Source: a virus
IMG/VR virus record: IMGVR_UViG_3300043313_000890
Span: 1-28,515 of that record
Reading direction: 5' to 3' (one strand)
Length of the DNA stretch: 28,515 bases
The notes beneath the pieces are model-generated. The model was not told the DNA's origin. It did not search any database and worked only from the letters and a program-made list of their open reading frames with translations. The position numbers and the translations under genes are program-made. Positions 4,068 through 27,639 of this stretch are shown in pieces. Positions within the stretch are counted from its first letter, which is position 1, and every line of letters begins with the position of its first letter.

Positions 4068-4423
4068 GCCGCTCGTACCTCGCCAACAAGGAGGCCCAGG
4101 AGAAGCTGACCGAGGCCGAGCGCCGCGTGCACGAGAAGCGCGAGGAGGACCTCCGCCAGGTGATGCGGACCGAGGTTGGCCGGCGCTTCGTCTACCACCT
4201 CATCTACCTGCGCTGCGGGGTGATGGACGACTTCTTCAGCGGCAACAGCCACGACGTTCGCCGCGGTGGCCAGCAGTCCGTCGGCAAGCAACTGGTCGCT
4301 GATCTCCAGGAACTCTGCCCGGACGAGTTCCTCCAGATGCAGAGCGAAGCAATCTCCGCCGCCAAGCAGCGGAGCTCAATCCGGCGCGCCGTTGTGGCCG
4401 CCGCTCACCAGGAGCACGACTGA
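4064..4423 (+). CDS. Bbp19-like small head-region protein
   Basis: The 119-residue protein resembles the Bbp19 family seen in podovirus head modules such as that of Bordetella phage BPP-1. The recognisable part is residues 31-100: a basic helix with EVGRRFVYHLIYLRCGV, then a GGQQSVGKQLVADLQELCP segment and a following E/M-rich helix. In relatives this gene lies between portal and scaffold, as here. Its biochemical role is not established, so I call it by family only. The start ATG at 4064 overlaps the portal stop (ATGA), and its stop overlaps the next ATG. The charged N-terminal 30 residues look helical. Confidence 0.72.
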   Translation: MSRSYLANKEAQEKLTEAERRVHEKREEDLRQVMRTEVGRRFVYHLIYLRCGVMDDFFSGNSHDVRRGGQQSVGKQLVADLQELCPDEFLQMQSEAISAAKQRSSIRRAVVAAAHQEHD

Positions 4424-5166
4424 TGCAGACGAACCCCACCACCACCGCTACGGGTTCCACCAATGCGGGCGGAGCTGGAGCCACCGGCAGCACCTCCACC
4501 GGGAACGCCGAGGGCAAGGAGGCAACGACGACCGAGAAGACCGGCGCCGGGGCCACTACCGAGCAGAAGACGGACGCAGCAGGCAAGGCGACCGAGAGCG
4601 ACAGCCTCCTCGAGAGCAAGGAGACGGACACCAGCAAGGACAAGGCAGAGGTGAAGACCGACGCCAAGGCCGAGCCGGAGCTCGTCATCAAGTTCCCGGA
4701 CGGGGTGAAGGTGGACGACGCGACGCTTGGCGAGTTCAAGGCGTTGGCGAAGGAGTTGGGCCTCAAGGGGGAGCAAGCCCAGAAGGCAGCTGACTTCTAC
4801 GTCAAGGCCCAGGCCGCCACGACCGAGCGGAGCCAGCAGCACTGGGCACAGGTGCGCAAGGAGTGGACGGACCAGGCCAGAGCCGACAAGGAGTTGGGAG
4901 GCGACAAGCTGCCCGCAAGCGTCGAGTTCGCGCGGAAGACCATCGCGCGGTTCGGCGGGGAGAGGCAGGGCGAAGCGGTGCTCTCAATTCTCAAGGACTC
5001 AGGCCTCGACAACCACCCCGAGATGCTCCGGTTCCTCGTGAACGTGGGGAAGCAAATTTCCGAAGACAACAGCGGCGGCGTCACCGGCAACGGCGGCAAA
5101 GGCGCGACCTCCAGGGAGGAGTTCCTCCGGGGGATGTACCCAACCATGCACAAGAAAAAGGAGTAA
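4423..5166 (+). CDS. Capsid scaffold/assembly protein
   Basis: The 247-residue product is very acidic and low complexity in its first 80 residues (Thr, Gly, Ala, Glu, Lys), then strongly helical. The helical part contains the pattern usual for podovirus scaffolds next to the capsid gene: IKFPDGVKVDDATLGEFKAL, then AKELGLKGEQAQKAADFY, then WTDQARADKELGG, then NHPEMLRFLVNVGKQISED. It should guide procapsid assembly and then leave the head. Some databases call relatives 'putative protease', but I see no catalytic motif. It overlaps the preceding stop and ends six bases before the major capsid start, the canonical scaffold position. Confidence 0.82.
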   Translation: MQTNPTTTATGSTNAGGAGATGSTSTGNAEGKEATTTEKTGAGATTEQKTDAAGKATESDSLLESKETDTSKDKAEVKTDAKAEPELVIKFPDGVKVDDATLGEFKALAKELGLKGEQAQKAADFYVKAQAATTERSQQHWAQVRKEWTDQARADKELGGDKLPASVEFARKTIARFGGERQGEAVLSILKDSGLDNHPEMLRFLVNVGKQISEDNSGGVTGNGGKGATSREEFLRGMYPTMHKKKE

Positions 5167-5172
5167 CGAGCA

Positions 5173-6162
5173 ATGGCAACCACAGCGAATGACACGAGCC
5201 TCCCGACCCTCGTGGACGTCATCAAGACGCAGGACCCTGATGGCACCACGGCGAAGGTCGTCGAGGTTTTGGCGCAGCAGAATTCACTGCTGCAAGACGC
5301 AGTTTTCGTCGAGGCCAACGGCGAGACTGGGCACCAGGTGACCGAAGAAATGGCTCTCCCGGCCGTCGCCTGGCGTCGGTTCAACAAGGGGACGCCTCCG
5401 AGCAAGGGCGCTGATCGACAGTTCGTCGAGACGGCCGGCATGCTCGAGGGCTGGAGCGTTGTCGACTCGGACCTGGCGAAGTTGAACGGGAACGAGGCGA
5501 GCTACCGGTACCTCAAGGACCGGAAGTTCATGCGCTCGATGGCCAACGAGGTCGAGACCGGTGGCTTCTACCACTCGACCGAGTCGGCCCCGGAGAAGTT
5601 CCAGGGTCTGTCCCCCCGGTATGACTCCACCTCCGGGCTGGCTGGTTCGCAGATCATTCTGCACACCGGCTCTCCCTCCGGAGCTCAGGCGTCGATCTGG
5701 CTGCTCGTCTGGAGCCCCGAGTCGGTCTTCTTCTTCTATCCGAAGGGGAGCCAGGGCGGGCTCGTCCACAAGGACCTGGGAGAGATTCCCTGGGAGGACG
5801 AGGACGGCGACAAGTTCATGGCCTACGTGAGCAACTGGAAGTGGCACACGGGGTTGTGTGTCGCGGACCGTCGCCAGGCCGTGCGCATCGCGAACATCGA
5901 CCGCAGCGCGCTGGTGACGACCGACCTGTCGCTCATCAACACGATGGTCGATGCGTACCACTCGCTGTATGACCCGGATCAGGGGCGGGCCGCGTTCTAT
6001 TGCGACCGCGAGATCGGCGCCTTCCTGCACAAGCAGGCGCTGAACGGAGTGTCGAACTCCACCCTCCGCATCGAGGAGATCGGCGGCAAGCCGGTCACCT
6101 CATTCCTGGGAATCCCCGTCCGCCGCGCCGACGCGCTGACCGACGAGGACCCCATCACCTGA
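5173..6162 (+). CDS. Major capsid protein
   Basis: The 329-residue product matches the major capsid proteins of BPP-1-like and related podoviruses, about 330 residues long. Conserved pieces are the N-terminal DVIKTQDPDGTTAKVVEVL, the stretch NSLLQDAVFVEANGETGHQV, then LPAVAWRRFNKGTPPSKG, and later GFYHSTESAPEKFQGLSPRY. It should adopt the HK97-type fold and form the icosahedral shell. The start at 5173 is supported by AAGGAG at 5158-5163. It follows the scaffold and precedes the cement protein, and the GC hairpin after the cement gene is placed to end transcription of this highly expressed pair. Confidence 0.93.
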   Translation: MATTANDTSLPTLVDVIKTQDPDGTTAKVVEVLAQQNSLLQDAVFVEANGETGHQVTEEMALPAVAWRRFNKGTPPSKGADRQFVETAGMLEGWSVVDSDLAKLNGNEASYRYLKDRKFMRSMANEVETGGFYHSTESAPEKFQGLSPRYDSTSGLAGSQIILHTGSPSGAQASIWLLVWSPESVFFFYPKGSQGGLVHKDLGEIPWEDEDGDKFMAYVSNWKWHTGLCVADRRQAVRIANIDRSALVTTDLSLINTMVDAYHSLYDPDQGRAAFYCDREIGAFLHKQALNGVSNSTLRIEEIGGKPVTSFLGIPVRRADALTDEDPIT

Positions 6163-12578: not shown

Positions 12579-15500
12579 ATGGGCGACACGAACCCGTACC
12601 TCGACCTGGTGGAACCCCAGGCCGATCCAACCGCTGCGCCCTCTGGAGCGCAGACGTCTGCAGTCGAGCAGGCAAACCCCTACGCCGAGCTGGTCGAGCC
12701 CCAGGTGGACAACGAGGCCGGGCTGGCGGATGGACTTCGTCAGGCGGCGTACAGCGCATTCGCGGCCCAGCCCGACAAGCAATCCCAGGTGAAGGAGCTC
12801 AGCCGCCGGATGCGAGTGCCCGCGGACTGGGTCGAGCAGAACTACCCCGCCTTCGAGCGCGACTTCCAGGTCTCCAACTTCGACGCCAAGGGGTGGCTCG
12901 CCAACAACCCCACGATGGCGGACGTGTTCCGTCGCCACCAGGACGTGGCCGAGCACGTCGTCGTGGATCAGCCGATGTACAAGCTGACACAGTTCCTCCG
13001 GAACGCCTGGACCAGCATCGACATGGCGGCCGGCGGCGAGCCCTCTGTGGGCATGGATTTCGGGGTGAGCCTCGCGCCGGCGGAGGAGAGGCCGGAGACA
13101 AAGCCCCTCGACTTCTCCGCTGCCCCCAAGGTCGAGATGCAGAAGGCCGGCTCCTACGACAAGGGGCTGCTCTCCAAATTCGGCGAGTCGTACAGCGAGA
13201 ACAAGTCAGCCTCCGACAAGCTCGGCGAGGTGGGCCGGGAGATGCTCTGGCGCGGCATTCGCGGGGAGACCGACGCCTGGGACCTCGAGAAGAGAGCGGT
13301 CGACATCCAGAGCCAGCACCAGCCGAAGTCCTACGGCGAGGGCTTCCTTTCCGAGATGGCGAGCTCGGCCGGGCAAGTGGCCCCGTCGATGGTCCAGGGG
13401 ATGGAGCAGATGGGGGCGGGCGGGGCTGTTGGCGCGCTCATCGGTGCGACTCCCGGGCTGATCGCCAGGAATCCTCAGCTCGCAGTCAAGGGCGCCCTGA
13501 AGGTCGGTCGGCTCGGCGCTCGAGCTGGCAGCTTCGTCGGCACGATGATGATGGAGGCGCAGTCGGACATGGTCGACCTGGTCGACACAAGGACCGACGC
13601 GGGCGAGCGGGTCCCTCTCCGAGTGGCGGCCGGTGCTGCCCTGGTTGGCGGCGTGCTGAAGGCGGTGCTCGAGCAGGGGCTCTTCGAGCTCGAGGCCAAG
13701 CGGTGGGGGCCCGTCGGCGAGCTCCTCGCGTCGGGCAACTACAAGCAGGCCATGGCCAAGGTGCTCACCCAGAAGGGCTCCTGGCAGCTCTTCAAGGATG
13801 TTTCGGAGCGCCTGGCGAAGGGCAACATCTCGGAGAGCTTCCTCGAGGAGAGCCCCCAGGAGGTGATCGGAATGCTCGAGGGGTACGTGGCCAGGTCGAT
13901 GGTCGCCGGCAAGCTGCAGCAGCCGGACATCGCGGGCGGAGCTGCCCAAGCAGTGGCGGCCGGAACGAGCGCATTCATCGGGATGCTCCCCCTGGCGCCG
14001 GTGCACGCGGCCGTGAACGTGGTCCAGGACAAGGTCCTCCGCCGAGTCCTGCCCGACGTCGAGCGCAAGCTCATCGAGGCCAAGGTTCTTTCGGAGGAGT
14101 CGGCGGTCGGGCAGCACCAGGCGAACGCGATCATGGACGCCGCCGCCAATTCTCCCGCAGGTCGCGCGAAGCCCGCGGCAATGGCGGATGCAGTGGCCAC
14201 CGCTTCCGGGAAGGTCGGCCGCGAGGTGACGGACCTCTACGTCGATCCGGCCACCGTGCAGACCTTCTTCCAGAGCGCCAACACCGACGTGAACGAGGGC
14301 GCCAAGCAGCTCATGGGCGAGAGCGGACCGGAGCGCCTGCAGGAGGCCCTTGCGACCGGCGGCAAGCTCGAGGTGTCCATCGAGGAGTTTCAAGACAAGT
14401 GGGCCGGGCACGCCATCGCTGGGACGCTCAAGGACAAGGTCGCGGTCAGTCCGGTGCACAAGACCGGGGAGCAACTGAAGCAGGAGAAGGAATCCTTCGC
14501 CGCCAGCGTGAAGGACCTGGTCGCCCAGTTCGACAAGAAGGACGGGCCGGACCCGTCGCCAATGGAGCAGGCCGCAATGTCGCAGATGCAAGACGACATG
14601 CGGCGCGCTGGGCGCCAGGAGTCGGAGGTTCAGAAGGCAGTCACGCTTCGGCGCGCCGTTCTTCACACGCTCTCTGCCCGCGAGGGGCGGACCGTCGACG
14701 AGCTCCTGGCCCAGTACCCGCTTCGCGTGAATCCAGCGCAGACCGGCCCTGCCGCCGAGATGTCGCTCTCCCAGTCCGCAGCGCCAACCGACAACGCGAC
14801 GGAGCTCTCCACCTACTATCGCGGCCTCGACGAGGAGGGGAAGCTCGGCGCCTACTACAAAGACCGGGTGACGGGGCTGCTCAACCGCCGGGCCTTCGAT
14901 GCGCTTCCGACCGAAGGGAAGCCGCTCGTGGCGCATGTCTCCGTGGAGGGCTCGAAGCACTACAACAGCAAGGGCGGCCACCCGCTCGCCGACAAGGTGC
15001 TGCGGGCAGCAGCCAGGGCGCTGGTCAAGGCTGCGCCGGAAGCAGCGAAAAGCGGAACCGACTTCGTGGTCCGAGTGGCGTCGGCAGAAGAGCTGGCACC
15101 AATCATTGCAGCGCTTCAGGCCGCTCCGGAACTGAAGGGGCTGCAGGTGACCGGCACCGTCGGAAAGGACATCACCGAGGCCGCAGGCGCCCACGACGAG
15201 ATCAAGCGGTTGGCCGAGGATGCGAAAACCCGGGCTCCTCGTGGGGAGCGGCCTCTTGGCGTGGACGAGAACGAAGACCTCGCAAGGTTCGGTGAGGGCG
15301 AGGCTCAGGGGGCTCTGATCGGCGACGAGCTCCGCCAGGCCTTCGCCGGCGTTCCGGAAGAGTTCGCCATTTCCACGATCAACTTCGAGCCCGACACCGG
15401 CGTCCTCACCGAGGACGGCTTCAGGGCGCTGCCGCAGAAGAAGTGGCAGGCGCGGCTGGATCTCAACGGACTCAAGGCGACCAACCAATTCGGGAAGGTC

Positions 15501-18500
15501 ATCGGCGACACCCTCATCCGCAGCTTCAGCACCATCGCGGCGCAGCAGTTCGGCCAGGCCTTTGATTTCGCGCACTTCCATGGAGACGAGTACGCGGCCC
15601 AGGCTGACGACCCGGCCCTGTTGGCCGATTTCCTCAGGCACCTGTATCATTTGGCTGAAGGTGCGACGGTCGATGTCCCCGGAGAATCTGGCGACACGTT
15701 CCGCATCAAGGAGATTTCCTTTGGCTGGGGAGTTGGAAGGACAGAGGACGATGCCGAGCGGAACCTCAACACCCACAAAGACCGACTCGCGAGACACGGC
15801 AAGCGAGGAGCGGCAGCCGACCGAGGTCGCGTTGAAAGACTTGCCCCCGGGGTTCAAGGCCGAGAAGGCGCTTCGGATAGCGTTTCACGGCGTGGAGGTC
15901 TGGAACCACGAGAAGACGTACTCGCGCGAAGAGCTCGCCTCGAAGAGTTCGGAAATCATGGACGCGATGTACGGCCCGAAGGCTCCGCAAAAGTAGAGCG
16001 CTTCGACCAGTCCAAGAAGGAGGACCCGAAGAACCTCCTGGTGCAGCACAACCTCACCGCTGACAACCTGCTCCACGCTGACGAACTCGGCGGCCTCGCA
16101 GCGCCCTCTCTCGGCGTCGCCAGAAAAGAGCACCCGCTCGAGAGCTTCGGGGAGATCACTCTCCTCGGTGGGCCGGAGATGGCCGATCCAAGCGAGACTC
16201 CGGTTTTTGCCTCGGACGCTTACTCGCCGAGGTACCCGGACACCCACTTCCAGGTGAAGGATTCTGAGCTCACGAACCTCACCCGGTTCCTCGCCCCGTT
16301 CGTCAAACGGACAGAGGGCTACCTGGGGGACTTCCGGGAGAAGGTCGAGGCGGACGATCCCAGGGACGTGATCCACGGCTCGCTGATCCAGCCCGCGCTC
16401 CAAGTGGCCTGGCTGGAAACTGAGAAGAATCAGAAGGTTCCTGGGGAGGGCAGGTCCGCGATCCGGGACGCGGCCGAAGAGATGGTCGCTGCCGCCGGCG
16501 AAAACGAGTTCGAGGAGTGGGCCGAAGCAAGGGTCGCCGAGGCTCAGGGCGCCAGGCTCATCACGCGTCGCACGGCGAGCGGGAACAAGAGGGGCATCCC
16601 GTACACCCTTGAGAACGTGCTGAAGGAAGTGACGGGCAAGATCCGCCAGGGCGAGAACTTCAACTTCGGTCTCGGCAGTGTGCGCGCTGCCGGCACGAAG
16701 CGCTTCTCCAGCCTCGAGCAGATCAAGAAGGCCCGCGACAAGGTCGTCTCCCCGGAGCAGTTCGAGTCGCTGAAGAAGGAAAACGACAGCCGCTTCTTCG
16801 CTCTCACCGAGGAACTCCAGCCCTACTATCAGGGCGACAGTTCCTTCCGGATGATCGACGACGTCGCCGCGGCGATTGGCGAGTCCTACAAGCGCGGCCG
16901 CTCGATCGGGGCCGAGCTCGCCTACCGATTCAAAGACGTGCCGTCGGAGCTCGTCGAGAAGGTCCGCGCATTCGGCCAGGACCTCCTAGCGATGCCCACC
17001 GAGTATTTCGAGGCCAAGCCCCAGCGCGCGGTGCGGCTGGGCGAATTCAAGGCTGCCGTGGTTCCTGAAGGAGTGAGCCCGAAGGTGCTCGAGGCGCTGA
17101 AGGAGCACGGGCTCGAGGTTGTCACCTACAGCAAGTCGAAGGATGGTGATCGGCGGCGCGCGATCGAGGAGGCCGCAACCAGAAAGGACATCCTCTTCCA
17201 GGGCACCGGCGACGAGCGCGGGCGGGTGGAGATCGTCAAGACGGCGCAGAGCAAGGCGTTCAACATCTTCCTCTCGAAGGCTGACAGGTCGACCGTATTC
17301 CACGAACTCGGCCACACCTTCCTTGAGATGATGCGCGACCTCGCGGCCAAGCCCGGCGCCTCGGCCGCACTGAAGGCGGACCTCGAGGCCACCCTGAAGT
17401 GGATGGGGGTCGAGAAGGCGGAGGACATTCAGCGGGAGCACCACGAGAAGTGGGCGCGAGCCTTCGAGGCCTACCTGCGCGAGGGCAAGGCGCCCAGCAA
17501 CGCGATGATGCGCGCATTCACCCGGTTCCGGCTGTGGCTGACCGGCGTCTACTCCAACGCCACCGAGCTCAACGTCGAGCTCACCGACGAGGTTCGCGAG
17601 GTGTTCGAGCGCCTCCTGGCCACCGACAAGGAGATTGACCGCCAGCGTCGCAGCATGGGCCTGGCGCCCCTGTGGCAGTCCCCCGTGCAGGCCGGCATGA
17701 CTCCGGAGCAGTGGCAGGCCTACCTGGACGAGATGGCGGACGTCACCTCGCACGCATCGATGCAACTGGCCCACACCGCGGTCAAAGAGCAGCTGCGCGA
17801 GTCGGAGGCCTGGTGGCGTGAGGAACTCGCGGCCGAGAAGGAGAAGGCGCGGGCGGCCTACGACGGGCTGCAGGTGACCAAGGCGAAGGACTACATCAAG
17901 AAGGGGAAGCTCCCCGACGCTCCGCCCAACGGGATGATGGGTCGCCTGGATCGGAAGAAGGTCGAGGCGCTGATCGGGAAGGACCGCGCGAAGGCTGCAT
18001 TCGGTGGTCGGCTGGTCAAAGAGGGCGGCGAGGACCCGAAGGACATCGCCCAGCTGTTCAACTACCCAAACGCCAGGCAGCTGCTCGAGGCGATTGAGCT
18101 CCACCCCACCCGTGACGAATGGGCCAGGGAGATGGCCGAGCAGGCGATGAAGGACAAGCACCCGGGCGTGATGGACGACATCGGCAAGATGCGGGACACC
18201 GCAGCCAAGGGGATGCACGGGGACCGCACCGCCGAGTGGCTCCTCCGGGAGTGGTCCGAGCTGGGCAAGAAGAGCGGGAGCCCCGTCCCGCCATTAGCTG
18301 CGATCAAGGCCGCGGCCGCGCTCCTGGTCGAGCGTCGGGCGGTCCGGAGACTCGACGCTGGGGCGGCTCTTACCGCCGAGCGTTCCGCGGCTGGCCGAGC
18401 AGCTCGAGCGGCTGCGAAGGGGGACACCTCCGCGGCCTACGTCGCGAAGCAGCAGCAGCTCCTCAACTTCTACCTGTACCGCGAGCTCACCAAGGCAGCC

Positions 18501-21017
18501 GAGGAGCGGGAGTCGTTCCAAGCCCTGCTGGCGAACCTCTCCGACGACAAGCGGCGATCCAAGCTGGGGCTCGCCGGGAAGGAGTACCTCGACGCGGTTG
18601 ACACCATCCTCGAGGCAGTGGGTGAGATAGCGCCGGAGCTCGACAAGGGCATCCTGGCCGAGCGCGGTGGACTCGAGGCCCTGGTGCAGCGGCTCGAGGC
18701 AGACATGCTCTCGCCGGCGTTCGACGTGGATCTCATCCGTCGGCTGATCGCGGACCCGAAGCCATGGAAGAGCCTGACCTTCGGGGAGATGCGGAACGTC
18801 GACTCGGCGCTCCGGCAGATCAAGAAGGCCGCCTATGACACCAACCACATCAACGTCGAGGGCAAGCGGCTGGCGGTGGATAGCCTGACCGACGCCATCG
18901 AGCTCGAGGCCTCGGGGTTGAAGGACCAGGGGACCCAGCCGCACTCGGCGTCCCTCGCCACCCCGGCGTACCGATTCAAGATCTGGCTCCACAGCTTCCA
19001 CGCCGCACAGCGGGAGACCGCGGGCCTGTTCCGGCGGCTGGGGTCGACCGCGACACGGTTCTTCTGGAAGGGGTACGTCGAGGCGAGGAACAAGGAGGTC
19101 GAGCTCTCCTCGAAGGTCCTCCGATTCTTCACCCAGGCATGGGAGGCGCTGCCGGAGGAAATGCAGGCCGGGCGCTACGACATCATCGACGCGAGCGCTC
19201 TACCAATTCCGGACGACGTCAACCTGGGCGGCGAGCGGGATCGGCAGTGGATGTGGATGGTCGCCCTCAACATGGGCAACGCATCGAACAAGGACCGGCT
19301 CCTCGGCGGGTACCAGTGGACCGACGCCCAGGTGACCGACTTCCTCAACAAGAACATGACGAAGGAAGAATGGGACTTCGTGCAGAGCATCTGGACCCTG
19401 CTCGACCGGGAGCTGTACCCGCACATGGCGGAGGCCTACGAGAAGGTCAACGGCATCAAGCCCCACAAGATCGAAGCCACCCAGGTGATCACCCCATTCG
19501 GCGTCCTGACGGGCGGGTACTTCCCGGCAAGGTACTCGCCGGTGGACTCGCGCGTGGGGCGCAAGCAGGCCGAGTCGGCGCTGCAGAACATCTTCGGCGG
19601 GAACAGCGTGCCGGCGTCGGTTGCGAAATCCTTCACCAAGGAGCGCGCGAAGAACTACTCGGACATCATCCTGCTCGACTGGAACGTGATGCCGGGGCAC
19701 GTACTCGAGACGATCCACTACGCTGCGTTCAACAGCTTCGTTCGAGATGCCGCGCGGATCATCGGCAATTCCTCCTTCAACTCGACGGTGGTGCGCCGGC
19801 TGGGCCTGCCGTACCGCGACAACATCGAGGGCTGGCTGAAGGCCGTCGCCAGCGTCCACAGCGACTCGGTCGCAAAGGAGCTCGGGGTCTTCTACCGCGC
19901 GCTCTCCAGTGGCAAGGCCCGCATGGTCGGCCGCGCCCTGGGGTGGAACATCGCCAACGCCCTGGGTGACCTGAGCAATCCCCTGGTGGCTGCTGCGGCG
20001 GGCAAGGTCTCAGCTGCATCGATGCTGCGCGCCTACGGGTCCTCGCTGGTGGGTGGGCTCCCGGCAATGCGGCGGGAGGCCCTCGCGAAGTCGCCAGAGA
20101 TGCGAATGCGGTCCGACGAGTCGACGGCCGAGCTGAAGCGGAAGATCGGGGAGATCGGTGCGGCAGGCAAGCGCACCCGGATCGGCGACGCGATCGCCCG
20201 AGCGCAGGAGACCAAGTTCTTCTTCCAACACACCATCGGAAAGCTCGTCGACCCAATCGTGTGGCACGGCGCCTTCGCCGATGCGCTGGCGGCCGACCCC
20301 GACGAGGGCCGCGCCATCCAGCACGCCGACGAGATGCTCCGCCAGGCCACGCCCTCGCACGAGGCGGGTGAACGGGCGCCGGTCCTCCGTGACAAGCACG
20401 GCATCGGACAGCTGATCGCCTTCCAGGGGTTTTTCAACAAGCTCTACAACATGGAATCGGACGTCATCTCAAAGGCGCTGGACCAATGGGACGATGCCGA
20501 GGGCAAGGCGGACAAGTTGCGTGCTGGCGCTCAGGCGGGGCGGACCCTGGCCATCCTGGTGATGGCCGGGGCGATCGGCGAGCTCTTCACGCTGAAGCAC
20601 CCGGAGGAGGAGACTCCGGAGGGCTGGGCTGAGTGGGCCGCGCTCCAGTCAATCTCGGCGTTCGGGGCGATGTTTGGGATCTTCGGGGCCGGCATCACCA
20701 CCGCGGGCACCAAGCTGCTCAAGCTCGTCGAGGGCAAGACGATGCAGCCGGTCAGCGCCCGGCTAGCGCCACCACTGGCGGGGATGGACTCACTGAGGCA
20801 GGCCCTCGACCAGGCCGTGCACAAGGGGGGCGATGCAGGAGACAAGGTCCTCGACGTCCTCGAGGCCCTCCTGGTCGCAGCCGACCTGCCGTCGGGGGCG
20901 CCGGTTCGCTCCGCCCGCTACCTCAAGGCGGTGGGCGCTGGTGACCACGAGCCCGAGGGGGTCATGGACGTGGTTCGTGGGGTGGCTGGGACGAAGCGGG
21001 TGGACCGCGGGGAGTAG
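12579..21017 (+). CDS. Giant internal/polyvalent virion protein with GGDEF-like and zincin regions
   Basis: This 2812-codon frame occupies the T7 gp16 position but is about twice that length. Hydrophobic Ala/Gly segments lie near residues 280-330 and 440-475. A degenerate GGDEF-like copy starts at VTGLLNRRAF (764-773). A second, better copy is at about 935-1075, with DLNGLKATN (D961, N963, K966, N969), GD at 976-977 and HGDEY at 1001-1005. A conserved HNLTADNLLHADELGG block follows at 1156. A zincin motif HELGH lies at 1575-1579, with E1630 in RAFEAYL as possible third ligand. The C-terminal 160 residues have hydrophobic segments near 2656 and 2692. This layout fits the 'polyvalent' proteins injected by phages. 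Between about 15800 and 15996 the coding signature is in the +1 frame, so the true product may be split or frameshifted. Confidence 0.82.
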   Translation: MGDTNPYLDLVEPQADPTAAPSGAQTSAVEQANPYAELVEPQVDNEAGLADGLRQAAYSAFAAQPDKQSQVKELSRRMRVPADWVEQNYPAFERDFQVSNFDAKGWLANNPTMADVFRRHQDVAEHVVVDQPMYKLTQFLRNAWTSIDMAAGGEPSVGMDFGVSLAPAEERPETKPLDFSAAPKVEMQKAGSYDKGLLSKFGESYSENKSASDKLGEVGREMLWRGIRGETDAWDLEKRAVDIQSQHQPKSYGEGFLSEMASSAGQVAPSMVQGMEQMGAGGAVGALIGATPGLIARNPQLAVKGALKVGRLGARAGSFVGTMMMEAQSDMVDLVDTRTDAGERVPLRVAAGAALVGGVLKAVLEQGLFELEAKRWGPVGELLASGNYKQAMAKVLTQKGSWQLFKDVSERLAKGNISESFLEESPQEVIGMLEGYVARSMVAGKLQQPDIAGGAAQAVAAGTSAFIGMLPLAPVHAAVNVVQDKVLRRVLPDVERKLIEAKVLSEESAVGQHQANAIMDAAANSPAGRAKPAAMADAVATASGKVGREVTDLYVDPATVQTFFQSANTDVNEGAKQLMGESGPERLQEALATGGKLEVSIEEFQDKWAGHAIAGTLKDKVAVSPVHKTGEQLKQEKESFAASVKDLVAQFDKKDGPDPSPMEQAAMSQMQDDMRRAGRQESEVQKAVTLRRAVLHTLSAREGRTVDELLAQYPLRVNPAQTGPAAEMSLSQSAAPTDNATELSTYYRGLDEEGKLGAYYKDRVTGLLNRRAFDALPTEGKPLVAHVSVEGSKHYNSKGGHPLADKVLRAAARALVKAAPEAAKSGTDFVVRVASAEELAPIIAALQAAPELKGLQVTGTVGKDITEAAGAHDEIKRLAEDAKTRAPRGERPLGVDENEDLARFGEGEAQGALIGDELRQAFAGVPEEFAISTINFEPDTGVLTEDGFRALPQKKWQARLDLNGLKATNQFGKVIGDTLIRSFSTIAAQQFGQAFDFAHFHGDEYAAQADDPALLADFLRHLYHLAEGATVDVPGESGDTFRIKEISFGWGVGRTEDDAERNLNTHKDRLARHGKRGAAADRGRVERLAPGVQGREGASDSVSRRGGLEPREDVLARRARLEEFGNHGRDVRPEGSAKVERFDQSKKEDPKNLLVQHNLTADNLLHADELGGLAAPSLGVARKEHPLESFGEITLLGGPEMADPSETPVFASDAYSPRYPDTHFQVKDSELTNLTRFLAPFVKRTEGYLGDFREKVEADDPRDVIHGSLIQPALQVAWLETEKNQKVPGEGRSAIRDAAEEMVAAAGENEFEEWAEARVAEAQGARLITRRTASGNKRGIPYTLENVLKEVTGKIRQGENFNFGLGSVRAAGTKRFSSLEQIKKARDKVVSPEQFESLKKENDSRFFALTEELQPYYQGDSSFRMIDDVAAAIGESYKRGRSIGAELAYRFKDVPSELVEKVRAFGQDLLAMPTEYFEAKPQRAVRLGEFKAAVVPEGVSPKVLEALKEHGLEVVTYSKSKDGDRRRAIEEAATRKDILFQGTGDERGRVEIVKTAQSKAFNIFLSKADRSTVFHELGHTFLEMMRDLAAKPGASAALKADLEATLKWMGVEKAEDIQREHHEKWARAFEAYLREGKAPSNAMMRAFTRFRLWLTGVYSNATELNVELTDEVREVFERLLATDKEIDRQRRSMGLAPLWQSPVQAGMTPEQWQAYLDEMADVTSHASMQLAHTAVKEQLRESEAWWREELAAEKEKARAAYDGLQVTKAKDYIKKGKLPDAPPNGMMGRLDRKKVEALIGKDRAKAAFGGRLVKEGGEDPKDIAQLFNYPNARQLLEAIELHPTRDEWAREMAEQAMKDKHPGVMDDIGKMRDTAAKGMHGDRTAEWLLREWSELGKKSGSPVPPLAAIKAAAALLVERRAVRRLDAGAALTAERSAAGRAARAAAKGDTSAAYVAKQQQLLNFYLYRELTKAAEERESFQALLANLSDDKRRSKLGLAGKEYLDAVDTILEAVGEIAPELDKGILAERGGLEALVQRLEADMLSPAFDVDLIRRLIADPKPWKSLTFGEMRNVDSALRQIKKAAYDTNHINVEGKRLAVDSLTDAIELEASGLKDQGTQPHSASLATPAYRFKIWLHSFHAAQRETAGLFRRLGSTATRFFWKGYVEARNKEVELSSKVLRFFTQAWEALPEEMQAGRYDIIDASALPIPDDVNLGGERDRQWMWMVALNMGNASNKDRLLGGYQWTDAQVTDFLNKNMTKEEWDFVQSIWTLLDRELYPHMAEAYEKVNGIKPHKIEATQVITPFGVLTGGYFPARYSPVDSRVGRKQAESALQNIFGGNSVPASVAKSFTKERAKNYSDIILLDWNVMPGHVLETIHYAAFNSFVRDAARIIGNSSFNSTVVRRLGLPYRDNIEGWLKAVASVHSDSVAKELGVFYRALSSGKARMVGRALGWNIANALGDLSNPLVAAAAGKVSAASMLRAYGSSLVGGLPAMRREALAKSPEMRMRSDESTAELKRKIGEIGAAGKRTRIGDAIARAQETKFFFQHTIGKLVDPIVWHGAFADALAADPDEGRAIQHADEMLRQATPSHEAGERAPVLRDKHGIGQLIAFQGFFNKLYNMESDVISKALDQWDDAEGKADKLRAGAQAGRTLAILVMAGAIGELFTLKHPEEETPEGWAEWAALQSISAFGAMFGIFGAGITTAGTKLLKLVEGKTMQPVSARLAPPLAGMDSLRQALDQAVHKGGDAGDKVLDVLEALLVAADLPSGAPVRSARYLKAVGAGDHEPEGVMDVVRGVAGTKRVDRGE
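15751..15996 (+). other. +1-frame coding segment inside the giant gene (frameshift or overlapping 81-aa ORF)
   Basis: In the frame one base ahead of the giant gene, from about 15800 to the TAG at 15994-15996, third positions are mostly G or C and the peptide reads like a real protein (ALKDLPPGFKAEKALRIAFH, then WNHEKTYSREELASKSSEI). The giant frame here is rich in Arg, Gly and Glu with many A/T third bases, as in an out-of-frame translation. An ATG at 15751 with AGAGGA at 15743-15748 could start an independent 81-residue protein. Alternatively two frameshifts, real or from sequencing errors, join it to the giant protein. An A-AAG slip site lies directly before the TAG. Confidence 0.55.
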
Positions 21018-21250: not shown

Positions 21251-21517
21251 CTAGCAACCGTCCTGAAAGAGAGAGCAATGGACAGAGCAGTAGGGTGAGC
21301 AGTTCTGCTGGTCTAGCTGCGCGGCCGCGTACGAGGACGCTGCGCAGACCAGCCTTCCGCCGGTGTCGTATGGGGTGACGTTCGGCGGGAACATGTGGCG
21401 CGTGCAGAGGTAGGTGTTCGTCGAGCTCGTCGGTGGAGGACTGCCCCCTCCGCCCGGATCGCTGGCGGGCGGACCACAGGCGACGGCGGCAAGGAGGGCG
21501 AGGGCGAGTCTCTTCAT
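21251..21517 (-). CDS. Cysteine-rich lipoprotein (reverse strand)
   Basis: The 88-residue reverse-strand product starts MKRLALALLAAVACGPP, a lipoprotein signal with the modified cysteine at residue 14. A Gly/Pro/Ser linker and a short mature domain with six more cysteines follow, suggesting disulfides in the periplasm or at the cell surface. The AVACGPP style and Gly/Ser/Pro linker are common in myxobacterial lipoproteins. It is transcribed against the virion genes and diverges from the fibre unit, a typical moron arrangement. GGGGAG lies immediately before the ATG, closer than usual. An outer-membrane spanin is the main alternative, but the cysteine content is unusual for that. Confidence 0.6.
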   Translation of the reverse strand: MKRLALALLAAVACGPPASDPGGGGSPPPTSSTNTYLCTRHMFPPNVTPYDTGGRLVCAASSYAAAQLDQQNCSPYCSVHCSLFQDGC

Positions 21518-21561
21518 CTCCCCATCCCACCACGCCCCGGCTCGGCCGCCAGAATTCGACC

Positions 21562-21575
21562 TGCAGACGTCTGCA
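21562..21575. promoter_or_regulatory. 14-bp perfect palindrome in divergent intergenic region
   Basis: TGCAGACGTCTGCA is a perfect palindrome between the divergent lipoprotein and fibre-locus genes, 11 bp upstream of the second copy of the 18-bp repeat. Such a site between divergent starts could bind a dimeric regulator. The inner 12 bases also occur at 12650-12661 inside the giant gene, so specificity is uncertain. Confidence 0.35.
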
Positions 21576-21586
21576 AAGTGCGTCCG

Positions 21587-21604
21587 CGGAAAATGTACGA
21601 AAGC
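21587..21604 (+). repeat. 18-bp direct repeat, copy 2 (candidate phage promoter/operator)
   Basis: This is identical to 63-80 and in the same orientation relative to the downstream forward gene. It sits 38 bp before the TTG start at 21643, in the only other divergent intergenic region of the window. Conservation of 18 bases in otherwise unlike sequence argues for a functional site. Confidence 0.5.
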
Positions 21605-21642
21605 AGTCGGAGCATGGCCTCTCCAGCCCCGGGGAGGCGCTC

Positions 21643-22092
21643 TTGTCGACCACCAAGAAGTTCCGACGCAGGCAGATTGTCAGCGAGGCCGAGTCAGGGG
21701 TGGTTGGGTTTCAGGCCAACAACGGGGCGCTGGTTGCACTCGGGGATGCCCCGGTTGTTTCGGGGTCCGCGGCCGGGATCGACATTGGCGGCGGCAAGCT
21801 CCTCATCGGTCCCTCCGGGAAGCTGAGCCTCGACTCCACCGACTCCAGTGGCATTCCGGGGGCCGCGACAGTCAACAAGCCGCGCGGTCAGGCGAAGGTT
21901 GCGGTCGGCGAAGCGACGCTGGTGATCACCAACAGCCTGGTGACCGCGGCCAGCGTGGTGTTTGCGGTCCTCCAGCAGGTGGACGCCACCTTCACCGAAA
22001 TCCTGTCGGTCGTTCCTGGGGCCGGCTCCTTCACCATCACCGGCAACGCTGCTGCCACGGCCGCCACGAAGGTCGGCTGGGTCGTCCTCTGA
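21643..22092 (+). CDS. Small tail/adhesin protein sharing a C-terminal domain with the tail fibre
   Basis: The 149-residue product begins LSTTKKFRRRQIVS and continues with beta-type sequence (VGFQANNGALVALGDAP). Residues 69-149 align with the last 82 residues of the downstream fibre: PGAATVNKP against PGNATINAP, TLVITNSLV against TVVITNNHI, and AGSFTITGNAAATA against AGSFTLIGNAAATA. Such domains occur at the ends of many phage tail and decoration proteins. I chose TTG at 21643 because GGGGAGG at 21631-21637 is ideally spaced and the sequence upstream is Arg-rich non-coding in character. It is probably a minor tail or capsid-surface protein. Confidence 0.72.
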   Translation: MSTTKKFRRRQIVSEAESGVVGFQANNGALVALGDAPVVSGSAAGIDIGGGKLLIGPSGKLSLDSTDSSGIPGAATVNKPRGQAKVAVGEATLVITNSLVTAASVVFAVLQQVDATFTEILSVVPGAGSFTITGNAAATAATKVGWVVL

Positions 22093-22095
22093 TCC

Positions 22096-24297
22096 ATGAC
22101 TGTTCCGGTCGCCACCAGAACCGTGTCCTACGACGGGGACGACGAGGTCACCGAGCTCCCGGTCCAGTTCCCGTTCATCGAGGACAACCACCTGGTGGTG
22201 ACCAAGACGGTCGACGATGTCGACGTCCTACTGGTCCAGGGCACTGACTACACGCTGACCGGTGCGGGCGAGTCCGAGGGCGGCACCGTTACTCTGCTCG
22301 AAGCACTGGCGACCGGCGAGACGGTCACCATCGAGCGCGTGGTGCCGTACACCCAGGAGTCGCAGATCGGGACCCAGGGCAGCTTCAATCCCGCCACCTA
22401 CGAGGCCGGGCTCGACAAGGTGACGATGCAGGTCCAGCAGGTCGCCGCGGATACCGAGGCCGCACTTGCCGCCATCCGCGAGGACATCGAAGCGGACCCG
22501 GATGCGACCGCACTCGATGCCCGGACCGTCGTGGCCTACGGGGGCACCACCGCGCGCACTCTGGCACGGCGCTTTGGGGACACGTTCCACTCGAGGGACT
22601 ACGAAATCGAGGGAGACGGGTCGGACGAGTGGGACGCGATTCAGGCATTCCTCAATCTCGCGCTTGTCCGCAACGGCAGGACGCTCGTTTTCGACGATGG
22701 CGTCTTCGGCTTCTCGCAGTTCCTCCACCTCTACAACGTCGAGCGCACACGCATCATCGGCGTCGGCCTTGGCGGGACCATCTTCCAGCCGACGGCCGCC
22801 CTGGTCGGAACGCGCTGCCTGCTGCTCAAGAATGTTCGCTTCTCCAAGTTCGAGGGCTTCTCTATCCGGGGAGTGGAGACCACGCGCCCCCGGTGCGCCA
22901 TCGAATTTCGCGAGGACGGGGCAGTCGGCGGCCGGGTCGGCACATCGAACGAAGTCGCCGACGTGGAGCTCGGCTCCGACGACTTCGTTGGGCTCACTGA
23001 CGGCATTCGTTGGACGTGCGCCGGAGCAATTGATGGCGCCGATGACCAGAACAATGATTTGGGGACCTGCCGTCGGGTGCTCGCACACAACCTGAGCAAT
23101 GACGCGTTCTCTATCGAGCACAACAATGCGCTCGCCATCAACTTCGACCACTGCCAGGCCTTCGACGTCGGGGTTGCCTACCACGCGGAGTTCGGCAGCT
23201 TCAACGTGCGAGGTGGCTTCATCTACACGAAGACCGCCGACTTCGTGGTGGGCGACGGGGTTGGCTTCCAGTCCTACCACCCGTGCCAGGTGCAGGGGGT
23301 CAACTCGGAGTCCAACACCCCGGCCGAGGCTTCCAAATCCATCATCCTCGGCGCCGGCGGTGACAAGGTCCGGCTCTTCATGGACCAGTACGAGCGGGTG
23401 GGCGGCAACTCATCGCCGACCAACATGGTGGAAATCCTCGGCGACGAGGCCCACCTGGTGCTCCACAAGTGTGCTCTCCGATACGGCCAGGCGGCGCAGT
23501 CTCTTGTGGATTCCGGAAACGGGAACCTCATCGAAATCACCGGCGGCCACTACGGGCTGACCGACTACACCTGGGGCGCCGGCGGCGGGGCGCTGATTCT
23601 CAAACACGTCCGCCACGAGCCAGGCACCGTCACCCTGAACCGCGACTCGGCCGGCTACCTGGTCCGCGACGCCAACGACGGCGGTGGCTTCCATCCTGGC
23701 GACTCCGTTCGCGTGGGGCCGACCGGTGGGAACGTCGGCACCGCCACCATGGACGCGCTGGTGAGCGGCTCCGGCCAATTCAGCGGCGACATGCTGCAGA
23801 TCAGCAGCAGCGAGCGGCAGTTCGCCCAGAAGCGGACCGGCGTCATCGGCACCGCCCCGAATAACCGGACCGACCCCAACTTCAAGTCCGGCCGCATCAG
23901 CAGCGGGACCTTCGCCAATTCCCCGCGCACCAGGTGGCTCTACGAGGACGCCGTTCTCGGCGAGGTGGTGATCGCCGAGCTCGAGTACCGTGGGTATTTC
24001 CAGCCAGTTCGCGGCCTGGCGCTGCCTCACGGGGACTCGAGCGGAAGCCCTGGCAACGCCACCATTAACGCCCCCTGTGGATTCTCGGCGGTGGCCCTCG
24101 GGCAGACGACGGTCGTCATCACGAACAACCACATCCTCTCCGCGAACGACAAGGTCTTCATCTGCCCAACGGACCTGGACGCAACGCTGACCGGGTGGAA
24201 GGTCACGAGAGCCGCTGGGAGTTTCACCCTCATTGGCAACGCCGCTGCCACCGCCAACTGGGCGTTCATGTGGTTCATCATTCCCAAGGCCATCTGA
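22096..24297 (+). CDS. Tail fibre/tailspike with T7-type anchor and beta-helix body
   Basis: The 733-residue product starts with a T7-fibre-like virion-anchoring domain: ATRTVSYDGDDEVTELPVQF, then GTDYTLTG, then VTIERVVPYTQESQ, up to about residue 115. A short helical linker follows, then about 300 residues with the repeating strands of a right-handed beta-helix, beginning near DEWDAIQAFLNLALVRNGRT and continuing with IIGVGLGGTIFQP and GFSIRGVE. This body type binds or cleaves surface polysaccharide in tailspikes; I cannot identify catalytic residues. The last 82 residues repeat the C-terminal domain of the preceding protein. It should be the main receptor-binding protein and starts 4 bp after the previous stop. 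Confidence 0.85.
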   Translation: MTVPVATRTVSYDGDDEVTELPVQFPFIEDNHLVVTKTVDDVDVLLVQGTDYTLTGAGESEGGTVTLLEALATGETVTIERVVPYTQESQIGTQGSFNPATYEAGLDKVTMQVQQVAADTEAALAAIREDIEADPDATALDARTVVAYGGTTARTLARRFGDTFHSRDYEIEGDGSDEWDAIQAFLNLALVRNGRTLVFDDGVFGFSQFLHLYNVERTRIIGVGLGGTIFQPTAALVGTRCLLLKNVRFSKFEGFSIRGVETTRPRCAIEFREDGAVGGRVGTSNEVADVELGSDDFVGLTDGIRWTCAGAIDGADDQNNDLGTCRRVLAHNLSNDAFSIEHNNALAINFDHCQAFDVGVAYHAEFGSFNVRGGFIYTKTADFVVGDGVGFQSYHPCQVQGVNSESNTPAEASKSIILGAGGDKVRLFMDQYERVGGNSSPTNMVEILGDEAHLVLHKCALRYGQAAQSLVDSGNGNLIEITGGHYGLTDYTWGAGGGALILKHVRHEPGTVTLNRDSAGYLVRDANDGGGFHPGDSVRVGPTGGNVGTATMDALVSGSGQFSGDMLQISSSERQFAQKRTGVIGTAPNNRTDPNFKSGRISSGTFANSPRTRWLYEDAVLGEVVIAELEYRGYFQPVRGLALPHGDSSGSPGNATINAPCGFSAVALGQTTVVITNNHILSANDKVFICPTDLDATLTGWKVTRAAGSFTLIGNAAATANWAFMWFIIPKAI

Positions 24298-25797: not shown

Positions 25798-26142
25798 GTG
25801 AGCGACGACAGCCAGCCACCAGGCCCCAAGTCTCCGGGGCGTGCTGCCACGGTGGACGAGTTCCGCCTGGACCCAACCGACACCAGCCACCGGCTGCGTG
25901 TGGTGGAAAGTCGCCTCCTCGGCATGGACGGTTGGCGGGAGAGGTACGGCGTCCTGATGATGGAGGTGCAGGCCGAGCAGAAGCGGCAGAGCGCATCCAT
26001 CTCTGATCTCAAGATCGAGCAGGCCAACCAGACTATCGCCCTGGAGCGCATCCGCTCGGAGCACAGCAAGGACCACGCGGAGTTGATGACGATTCTGAAG
26101 TCGCTCCTGTCGCACGTTCAGAGCGGACCCCTTGCCAAATGA
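25798..26142 (+). CDS. Coiled-coil protein of unknown function
   Basis: The 114-residue soluble product has a polar N-terminus (SDDSQPPGPKSPGR) and then a long heptad-like helix from about residue 30 to 105 (SHRLRVVESRLLGMD, then EVQAEQKRQSASISDLKIEQ). No membrane segment is visible. It starts at GTG 25798 after GGAGC and its stop overlaps the following ATG (ATGA), so it is coupled to the membrane protein downstream. The two could form a coiled-coil pair at the membrane. Confidence 0.65.
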   Translation: MSDDSQPPGPKSPGRAATVDEFRLDPTDTSHRLRVVESRLLGMDGWRERYGVLMMEVQAEQKRQSASISDLKIEQANQTIALERIRSEHSKDHAELMTILKSLLSHVQSGPLAK

Positions 26143-26624
26143 CCGTGCCAGAGGACATCGACCCGGAGACGGGCGAACTCCGGTGGGGCGCCAAGCTCAA
26201 GGCGGAGATCAAGAAGGACATCGCCGAGCTGCGCGGTGAGGTCCACGATCTCAAGGAGGGCACCGTGACGCATCGGGGACTGCTGGGCTGGGCGGGTGGC
26301 CTCATTGCCGGAATCGTGGTCGCAGTCGGAGGGGTGATGTGGTGGGGGGTCGATCGCGCCGACAAGGCCAAGGAGACCGCCGTCACCGAAACCAGGGCGA
26401 TCACCACCGTGGCCGTGGCTGAGTCGCACGAGGCAGTCGACAAGCTCTCGAAGGTGGTCGACCAGAACAAGCGGGAGGCCACCGCCCAGGTCCAGGCCGT
26501 CCAAGCCGACGTCGTGGAGGGCCGCAAGGACACGAAGGGCATCTACAACTTCCTGCTCTCCGGTCGTCGCCAGGCTCGGTTCGCGGCTCCGATCGAGGCC
26601 ACCATCCCCGAGGTGGTGCGATGA
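26139..26624 (+). CDS. Single-span membrane protein of the lysis region (possible i-spanin)
   Basis: The 161-residue product has a charged helical N-terminus (KLKAEIKKDIAELRGEVHDL), one membrane span at about residues 48-69 (LLGWAGGLIAGIVVAVGGVM), then a helical region up to about residue 135. The shape suits an inner-membrane lysis accessory such as an i-spanin, or a membrane-anchored scaffold. No partner o-spanin is recognisable next to it. It overlaps its upstream neighbour and the endolysin gene by 4 bp each, so all three are translationally coupled. Confidence 0.65.
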   Translation: MTVPEDIDPETGELRWGAKLKAEIKKDIAELRGEVHDLKEGTVTHRGLLGWAGGLIAGIVVAVGGVMWWGVDRADKAKETAVTETRAITTVAVAESHEAVDKLSKVVDQNKREATAQVQAVQADVVEGRKDTKGIYNFLLSGRRQARFAAPIEATIPEVVR

Positions 26625-27139
26625 ACGAGATCGCCAGCAGGCTCCCCCCGCGGCTCTCCCGATACGCCAAGCACTTCGAGGCCGCAGCACTGTGCTTTGA
26701 CCTCGACGCTCTGGTGCTGGCTGCTCTCTGCGATCGGGAAAGCGGAGGAGGCGACTTCCTCAGCACGAAGGGGCCGGATGGCGTTGGCGACGGCGGGCAT
26801 GGACGCGGCCTCATGCAGATCGATGATCGGTACCACAAGACCTTCATCGCAGCCCTGGGGGTCGACGGGGTGGCGCTCTGGAAGCGCCCCTGGGCCAACA
26901 TCCTTTACGGGGCGAGCCTCCTGGCGTTCAACCTGAGCCAGTTCGGCCGCGACTACATTCCGGCAATCGCCTCGTACAACGCGAGCCTCGACAACGTGCG
27001 CAACCTCATCCATTCCGCGGATGCCGGCGCGGACCGCGTTGCCCTGGTCGACACCATCACCACGGGCCACAACTACACCAAGGACGTCCTCGCTCGGCGC
27101 GACAAGTTCCTCGCAGCGCACCCGCTTCCAACCGTCTAG
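26621..27139 (+). CDS. Endolysin, lysozyme/transglycosylase-like
   Basis: The 172-residue product should cleave the glycan strands of peptidoglycan. The lysozyme-like fold is indicated by the catalytic glutamate in LCDRESGGG (E40), then GDGGHGRGLMQID at residues 57-68 and AIASYNASLDNV at about 115-126, the pattern of goose-type lysozymes and soluble transglycosylases. No signal peptide is present, so it would need the adjacent holin-like protein to reach the wall. It overlaps the upstream membrane-protein gene (ATGA), and the next gene begins 8 bp after its stop. Confidence 0.87.
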   Translation: MNEIASRLPPRLSRYAKHFEAAALCFDLDALVLAALCDRESGGGDFLSTKGPDGVGDGGHGRGLMQIDDRYHKTFIAALGVDGVALWKRPWANILYGASLLAFNLSQFGRDYIPAIASYNASLDNVRNLIHSADAGADRVALVDTITTGHNYTKDVLARRDKFLAAHPLPTV

Positions 27140-27147
27140 GAGAACCC

Positions 27148-27639
27148 ATGCACCTGCTAGTCCTCGCCGCAGAAGCCGCCTCCGCTCCGCCGCTGTCGTT
27201 CGGCGCCACCTTTGTGCAGTACCTCCTGGTCCCCATCTGCACCGCGGCGGCCGGAGTCGCCACCGCAGCGCTTGCCTACCTTGCTTCGTGGCTCCGGGAG
27301 AAGGCGAAGACCTCGAAGGTTGCCGGGGTCCTTTCCGTCGCCGACAACATCGCGCTGACCACCGTGGCCCACGTTCAGAGCGGGATGCGGGCGAAGCTTG
27401 AGAAGGCGGCGGAGGACGGGGAGATCACCTCTGCCGAGGCCGCCGAGCTCAAGACCGAAGGGATGCGCCTGCTGAAGGAGGGGCTCGGCGCGGGTGGCCT
27501 TGCCCAGCTCAAGTCCATCGGCATCTCCGGCGGTTTCCTGGAGACGTTCCTGTCCGGGCTGCTCGAGCGGGCGCTGGACATCCACCAGGCGGTCGAGGCC
27601 AGGGCCGTGGTGCCGGTCGCGGCCACCGCCTCCCCCTAG
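27148..27639 (+). CDS. Holin-like membrane protein
   Basis: The 163-residue product has one strong membrane segment at about residues 20-48 (FVQYLLVPICTAAAGVATAA), preceded by a short hydrophobic start. A basic junction (REKAKTSK) and a long helical cytoplasmic region follow. The arrangement resembles LLH-type phage holins: one span, then a helix with regularly spaced Ala and acidic residues. Its place directly behind the endolysin supports a role in releasing it. AGGAGA at 27138-27143 overlaps the endolysin stop. A holin regulator is the alternative. Confidence 0.7.
   Translation: MHLLVLAAEAASAPPLSFGATFVQYLLVPICTAAAGVATAALAYLASWLREKAKTSKVAGVLSVADNIALTTVAHVQSGMRAKLEKAAEDGEITSAEAAELKTEGMRLLKEGLGAGGLAQLKSIGISGGFLETFLSGLLERALDIHQAVEARAVVPVAATASP

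Follow-up and report, generated by a model that had tools for sequence, protein, structure and literature searches.

The window analysed here, an IMG/VR virus record of 28,515 bases, raises the question of why a giant phage gene should pass into the +1 frame in its coding signature over a short stretch and then return. The phage is close to phiV10/epsilon15-like podoviruses by its portal and terminase, with the portal about 44% identical over 88%. Acinetobacter phage Ab9 (2839 aa) and Cobetia phage Carin1 (2854 aa) have counterparts of the giant gene at the same place after a lysozyme-like gene. Several effector-type domains are combined in one large protein, namely a weak GGDEF domain, a PBECR5 domain and a zincin motif, as is typical of phage polyvalent proteins (Table 1). 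The GGDEF pair spans about residues 735-1071 of the giant frame, and the PBECR5-like domain starts 12 bases 3' of the stop codon at which the +1 signature ends. Elsewhere in the window, two adjacent ORFs (21433-22092 and 22096-24297) have similar C-terminal stretches (ATVNKPRGQAKVAVGEATLVITN and ATINAPCGFSAVALGQTTVVITN), perhaps a repeated tail-protein domain. A probable lysis cassette was recognized by eye at 26139-27639 and consists of a membrane-segment protein, a transglycosylase-like protein and another membrane protein.

A same-strand nested gene with its own start, across which the giant frame is read, is the likely explanation of the switch. A ribosome-binding site within the giant mRNA, at the end of the second GGDEF domain, would direct initiation at ATG 15751, and a hydrophilic protein of 81 aa would be read in the +1 frame as far as the TAG. 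Other ribosomes, having started at ATG 12579, would translate the giant frame straight across the nested ORF. The same bases would then encode an Arg/Gly-rich linker from the second GGDEF domain to the PBECR5 and zincin part.

Table 1. Features of the giant gene and of the putative nested gene in the window.
Feature	Position	Strand	Description
Giant polyvalent-protein ORF	12579..21017	+	2812 aa, open; phrog_9880-like (E 1.9e-201)
First GGDEF domain	14859..15104	+	PF00990, residues 761-842; weak, below the Pfam cut-off; 49% identity to L127
Second GGDEF-like domain (HGDEY motif)	15330..15791	+	Residues ~918-1071; 38% identity to L127; from alignments
Shine-Dalgarno-like purine-rich stretch GGAAGGACAGAGG	15735..15747	+	5' of the nested ATG; duplex energy -5.5
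Nested +1-frame ORF	15751..15996	+	ATG 15751 to TAG 15994-15996; 81 aa, ~9.0 kDa, hydrophilic
Dual-coding stretch	15775..15995	+	Codon usage fits the nested frame; giant frame gives an Arg/Gly-rich linker
PBECR5 nuclease-like domain	16008..16301	+	PF18814, residues 1144-1241, E 1.5e-14; giant frame
Zincin-like HELGH motif	17301..17315	+	Giant frame, residue ~1575

The switch had been noticed in a preliminary description of the window, and it is borne out by codon statistics. With a codon model trained on the window's other genes, the best island begins at 15775 or 15791, ends at 15993-15995 and favours the +1 frame over the giant frame by 83.5 nats. The giant frame had been regarded as the correct one on both sides, in agreement with its third-position GC content of 0.81-0.82 there; between 15811 and 15996, it drops to 0.40, against 0.85 for the +1 frame. 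The interval originally singled out, 15751-15996, is exactly the ATG-to-TAG span of a +1 ORF, counted from its best-placed start, that lies wholly inside the giant ORF on the same strand. In 4108 shifted-frame comparisons of 180 bases from the window's other genes, the best score was -21 (mean -88, sd 18), and none of their 180-base stretches came within 20 nats of switching. When the giant-frame protein was held fixed, the synonymous codons of 15804-15993 were 11.7 sd less likely than expected, and third-position GC was 10.6 sd too low. Under a stricter model, in which codons were resampled across 195 giant ORFs, the island still scored about 68 nats, and the null maximum was 49.

Relatives of this region are difficult to find. 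Neither the nested peptide nor the GGDEF part by itself, used directly as a query, retrieved any relative from viral contigs or phage records; a single-sequence genome scan also found none, and the portal protein matched no viral contigs. Searching genomes with the GGDEF alignment yielded many bacterial diguanylate cyclases and was uninformative. Alignment A2 of the conserved C-terminal part brought in 160 loci (numbered L). Among them, L127 carries a GGDEF pair (49% and 38% identity to the window) with the same +1 island directly after it. An alignment of the window with L127 then led to L179 and L180 and afterwards to L190-L193. The resulting set of eight phages, in each of which a giant gene contains a related GGDEF module, comprises the window, L127, L179, L180, L190, L191, L192 and L193. 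Homologues colinear with giant-frame residues 1075-1139, which would speak against a frame switch, were sought as the preliminary description had proposed, and none was found in meaningful form. A tblastn alignment of L004/L005 over residues 1060-1140 was discarded, since it prolongs the PBECR5 match at low identity.

In all eight phages, a +1 island of 21 to 121 nats directly follows the last GGDEF domain, with L193 (21 nats) and L192 (32 nats) at the weak end. The corresponding +1 ORFs have 49-96 codons and start with an ATG in or near the last GGDEF helix; the start in L192 is uncertain and may be ATG 5070 or TTG 5088. The domain that follows in the giant frame varies: the window has PBECR5 there, L127 has another domain, and in L180 and L190 the zincin part comes directly. 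One phage with a single GGDEF domain (L182/L183) is without the island. The nested ATG arises from differing giant-frame residue pairs (Asp-Ala, Tyr-Gly, Tyr-Glu) by way of less-preferred codons. With the giant-frame residues fixed, an ATG would fall in the five-codon stretch with a probability of 2-37% in each phage, and of about 2e-8 jointly if the phages are treated as independent. Anti-Shine-Dalgarno pairing is better at the eight nested starts than at other +1 ATGs (p=0.0004), and the GG-rich bases upstream of the nested ATG partly follow from the G-x-G motif of GGDEF. The synonymous anomaly of the giant frame sets in strongly some 10 codons 5' of the ATG, persists as far as the nested stop and has almost disappeared after another 4-8 codons. 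The early onset fits a ribosome-binding site and also a nearby frameshift. No stop interrupts the giant frame along the island in any of the eight phages, although coding for the nested protein by itself would keep it free of stops with a probability of 5-45% per phage.

As far as can be read from their nucleotide sequences, the eight phages show that both frames are kept open and that constraint extends from around the ATG to the +1 stop. Codon islands, conservation of the ATG and the boundary at the stop all indicate selection on the nested frame that is shared with relatives. The outer frame also appears to be translated, as it is open and resumes in every case, with PBECR5 and zincin in frame. 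Because the same arrangement recurs in seven other phages, the frame switch very probably has a biological origin and does not stem from faulty sequencing or assembly. Translation from the nested ATG is what we infer from these signals, and the overlapping 81-aa gene, one of the options offered at the outset, gains support from the ATG, the stop boundary and the islands.

Several other readings of the switch can be weighed against this evidence. Programmed +1 frameshifting is unlikely. On this reading, some ribosomes would slip out of the giant frame where the second GGDEF domain ends and stop at the TAG, giving a shorter product composed of the N-terminal part, the GGDEF pair and a +1 tail, while the rest make the full-length protein. 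Such a shift would account for a +1 tail directly after a domain end, for the end of constraint at the +1 stop and for synonymous constraint already present before the ATG, but it has no need for an ATG in 8/8 phages (joint chance 2e-8, again with the phages as independent) or for Shine-Dalgarno-like pairing. Inspection by eye of the eight sequences around the start and the stop revealed no shared slippery site, and stop codons are absent from the giant frame there. Furthermore, the +1 frame is closed about 13 codons (L180) and 7 codons (L193) 5' of the ATG, which leaves little room for a shift. A programmed shift back at A-AAG had been suggested as well; since the bases before the +1 stop differ among the homologues, with no conservation, A-AAG is not a conserved shift site. 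A division into two proteins, of which the GGDEF one would end in the +1 frame and the zincin one begin further on, is very improbable. In its favour, the giant frame has poor codon usage in the linker, yet this frame has no stop along the island in 8/8 phages, and in Ab9 and Carin1 the gene is undivided, at 2839-2854 aa. The window also offers no well-placed downstream start: the only one close by in frame is GTG 16041, 45 bases past the nested stop, with its GGAGG about 17 bases upstream.

It is equally improbable that the island is a compositional accident of a disordered Arg/Gly-rich linker, without a +1 product. The +1 frame is generally the second-best frame in GC-rich genes, and linkers are low in complexity. 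However, synonymous resampling with the protein fixed fails to reproduce the effect (z -11.7 in the window; 33 giant ORFs above 30 nats against 0.5), and the conserved ATG and the sharp boundary at the stop would both be left over. The least probable reading, also among the early options, is that an ordinary gene with one frame carries two compensating indels, either real or introduced in assembly. The window sequence exists in one copy, and the resulting polypeptide would look normal. Nevertheless, the +1 island recurs at this domain border in seven independent contigs, with an ATG and a stop in every case; the giant frame resumes in all of them, and the point of return is the stop codon each time. 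As far as sequence can decide, the homologues refute such indels.

With the nested gene as the preferred reading, the next question is which of the two frames is older. In 8/8 phages, the rest of the giant gene is matched more closely in codon usage by the nested frame than by the giant frame; in the window, the correlations are 0.69 for the nested and 0.25 for the giant frame (Hotelling t 3.6). Overprinting would predict nested codon usage further from the genome than that of the outer frame, and the opposite is found in all eight phages. Because the nested codon usage is nearer to the rest of the gene, the nested frame would, by the criterion described in PMC8227390, be the older one, which is the reverse of ordinary overprinting. 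With less certainty, it may be proposed that the small gene once stood at a gene border and was engulfed when the gene of the GGDEF module fused in frame with what lay downstream. Split-gene relatives with an unfused small gene in between were looked for, and none was clear.

The nested products themselves are very divergent, and their alignment exceeds that of shuffled sequences for some pairs only. A shared-motif test across them was not significant (P about 0.4), and HMMs built from them matched only their own members. The nested proteins of the GGDEF group may not form one family, so the conserved thing is the position and the arrangement. The nested protein of the window has no phrog_2423 match (0 families in the profile search) and no apparent signal sequence or lipobox. 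AlphaFold gave a pLDDT of 52 for all eight nested proteins and 68 for five cores, with a hairpin and a helix that were too weak for a fold search. The models thus suggest, with low confidence, a short beta-hairpin plus helix. One guess is a small accessory protein whose synthesis keeps pace with that of the giant protein. Two related arrangements were also seen. In L181, a separate short GGDEF gene has a +1 ATG ORF (MTDSTKTKPAGNG..., 4374-4601) starting at the corresponding place, which may be chance. The giant gene of L179 contains a second nested +1 ORF (5133-5414), with a TTG/GTG start directly after the first nested stop; its 93-aa product has two hydrophobic segments and is holin-like by eye.

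The pattern is not confined to GGDEF modules. Of about 195 giant ORFs from the fetched loci, 33 have +1 ORFs above 30 nats, some of them stop-to-stop ORFs extended upstream of the true start, against about 0.5 expected per resampled set. Good giant-frame coding on both sides was found for 18 distinct island cases (L178 duplicates L127). The island lies upstream of the corresponding zincin in 20/21 other giant genes with an island; no zincin was found in L193. The preceding modules include GGDEF (also in L118 and L162), DUF7178 (L143, weakly L105), GP88-like (L114) and others. In the L024/L130 pair, 13/22 differences fall on nested third positions, and there are 7 amino-acid changes in the nested frame and 17 in the giant frame. 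Nested +1 ORFs with a common PGKSYQVLLENAVRLVRSGRSKGEALALALNLAGYRPP-like pattern were seen at L118:7036-7248, L162:594-779 and L122:4330-4605, with weak phrog_2423 matches (E 0.001, 0.001 and 0.13). Giant polyvalent genes have additional +1 codon islands, often a short distance 5' of the zincin domain and after other modules, at L143:6913-7183, L146:5485-5803, L105:3667-3781, L172:7863-7933, L114:7839-7965, L099:7525-7687, L166:7627-7795 and L115:4392-4543.

The balance is about even for a broader proposal, that giant polyvalent genes repeatedly engulf small genes at module-fusion borders and keep them alive in the +1 frame with their own ribosome-binding site. The linker of one protein would then be the coding sequence of another, and there would be a general, largely unannotated store of nested genes that arose by fusion and not by overprinting. 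Gene callers seldom keep a gene wholly inside another, and such small proteins are missing from phage annotation. If the proposal is true, the giant genes of many phages hide proteins at module borders, and this definite set of small proteins could be examined for a part in infection. Nested genes would account for the nonsense-looking linkers in giant phage proteins, and engulfment by fusion would be an uncommon way for overlapping genes to arise, marked by a clear signature in codon usage.

Phage polyvalent proteins in which GGDEF occurs together with a zincin-like domain have been described (Iyer et al. 2017, PMC5512222), and the giant protein of the window resembles them in its GGDEF, BECR-fold nuclease-like and zincin-like domains. 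The main text of that work reports no nested genes: "overlapping" and "frameshift" are absent, and "nested" is used for a protein fold only. The 52-position phage family phrog_2423 is matched by the nested ORFs after GGDEF in L118 and L162 and not by that of the window. In lambdoid phages, the Rz/Rz1 pair is a small +1-frame lysis gene nested inside another; unlike it, the nested ORF of the window has neither a secretion or lipoprotein signal that is apparent nor a lysis context. Same-strand internal overlapping genes of viruses (PMC8227390) are also similar, with a small +1 ORF wholly inside a larger one, its own start and constraint on both frames. In classical overprinting, the nested frame is new and deviant in codon usage (PMC8227390), whereas here the nested frame has normal usage and the frame of the host gene deviates. 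A parallel in proposed history is the S gene inside the polymerase gene of hepatitis B virus. In the model of Pavesi (2015), as outlined in PMC8227390, a short gene between two genes was later overlapped as the flanks extended, much like the engulfment proposed here. That case concerns an animal virus, whereas here the process would have taken place in dsDNA phages, repeatedly, at the borders of modules.
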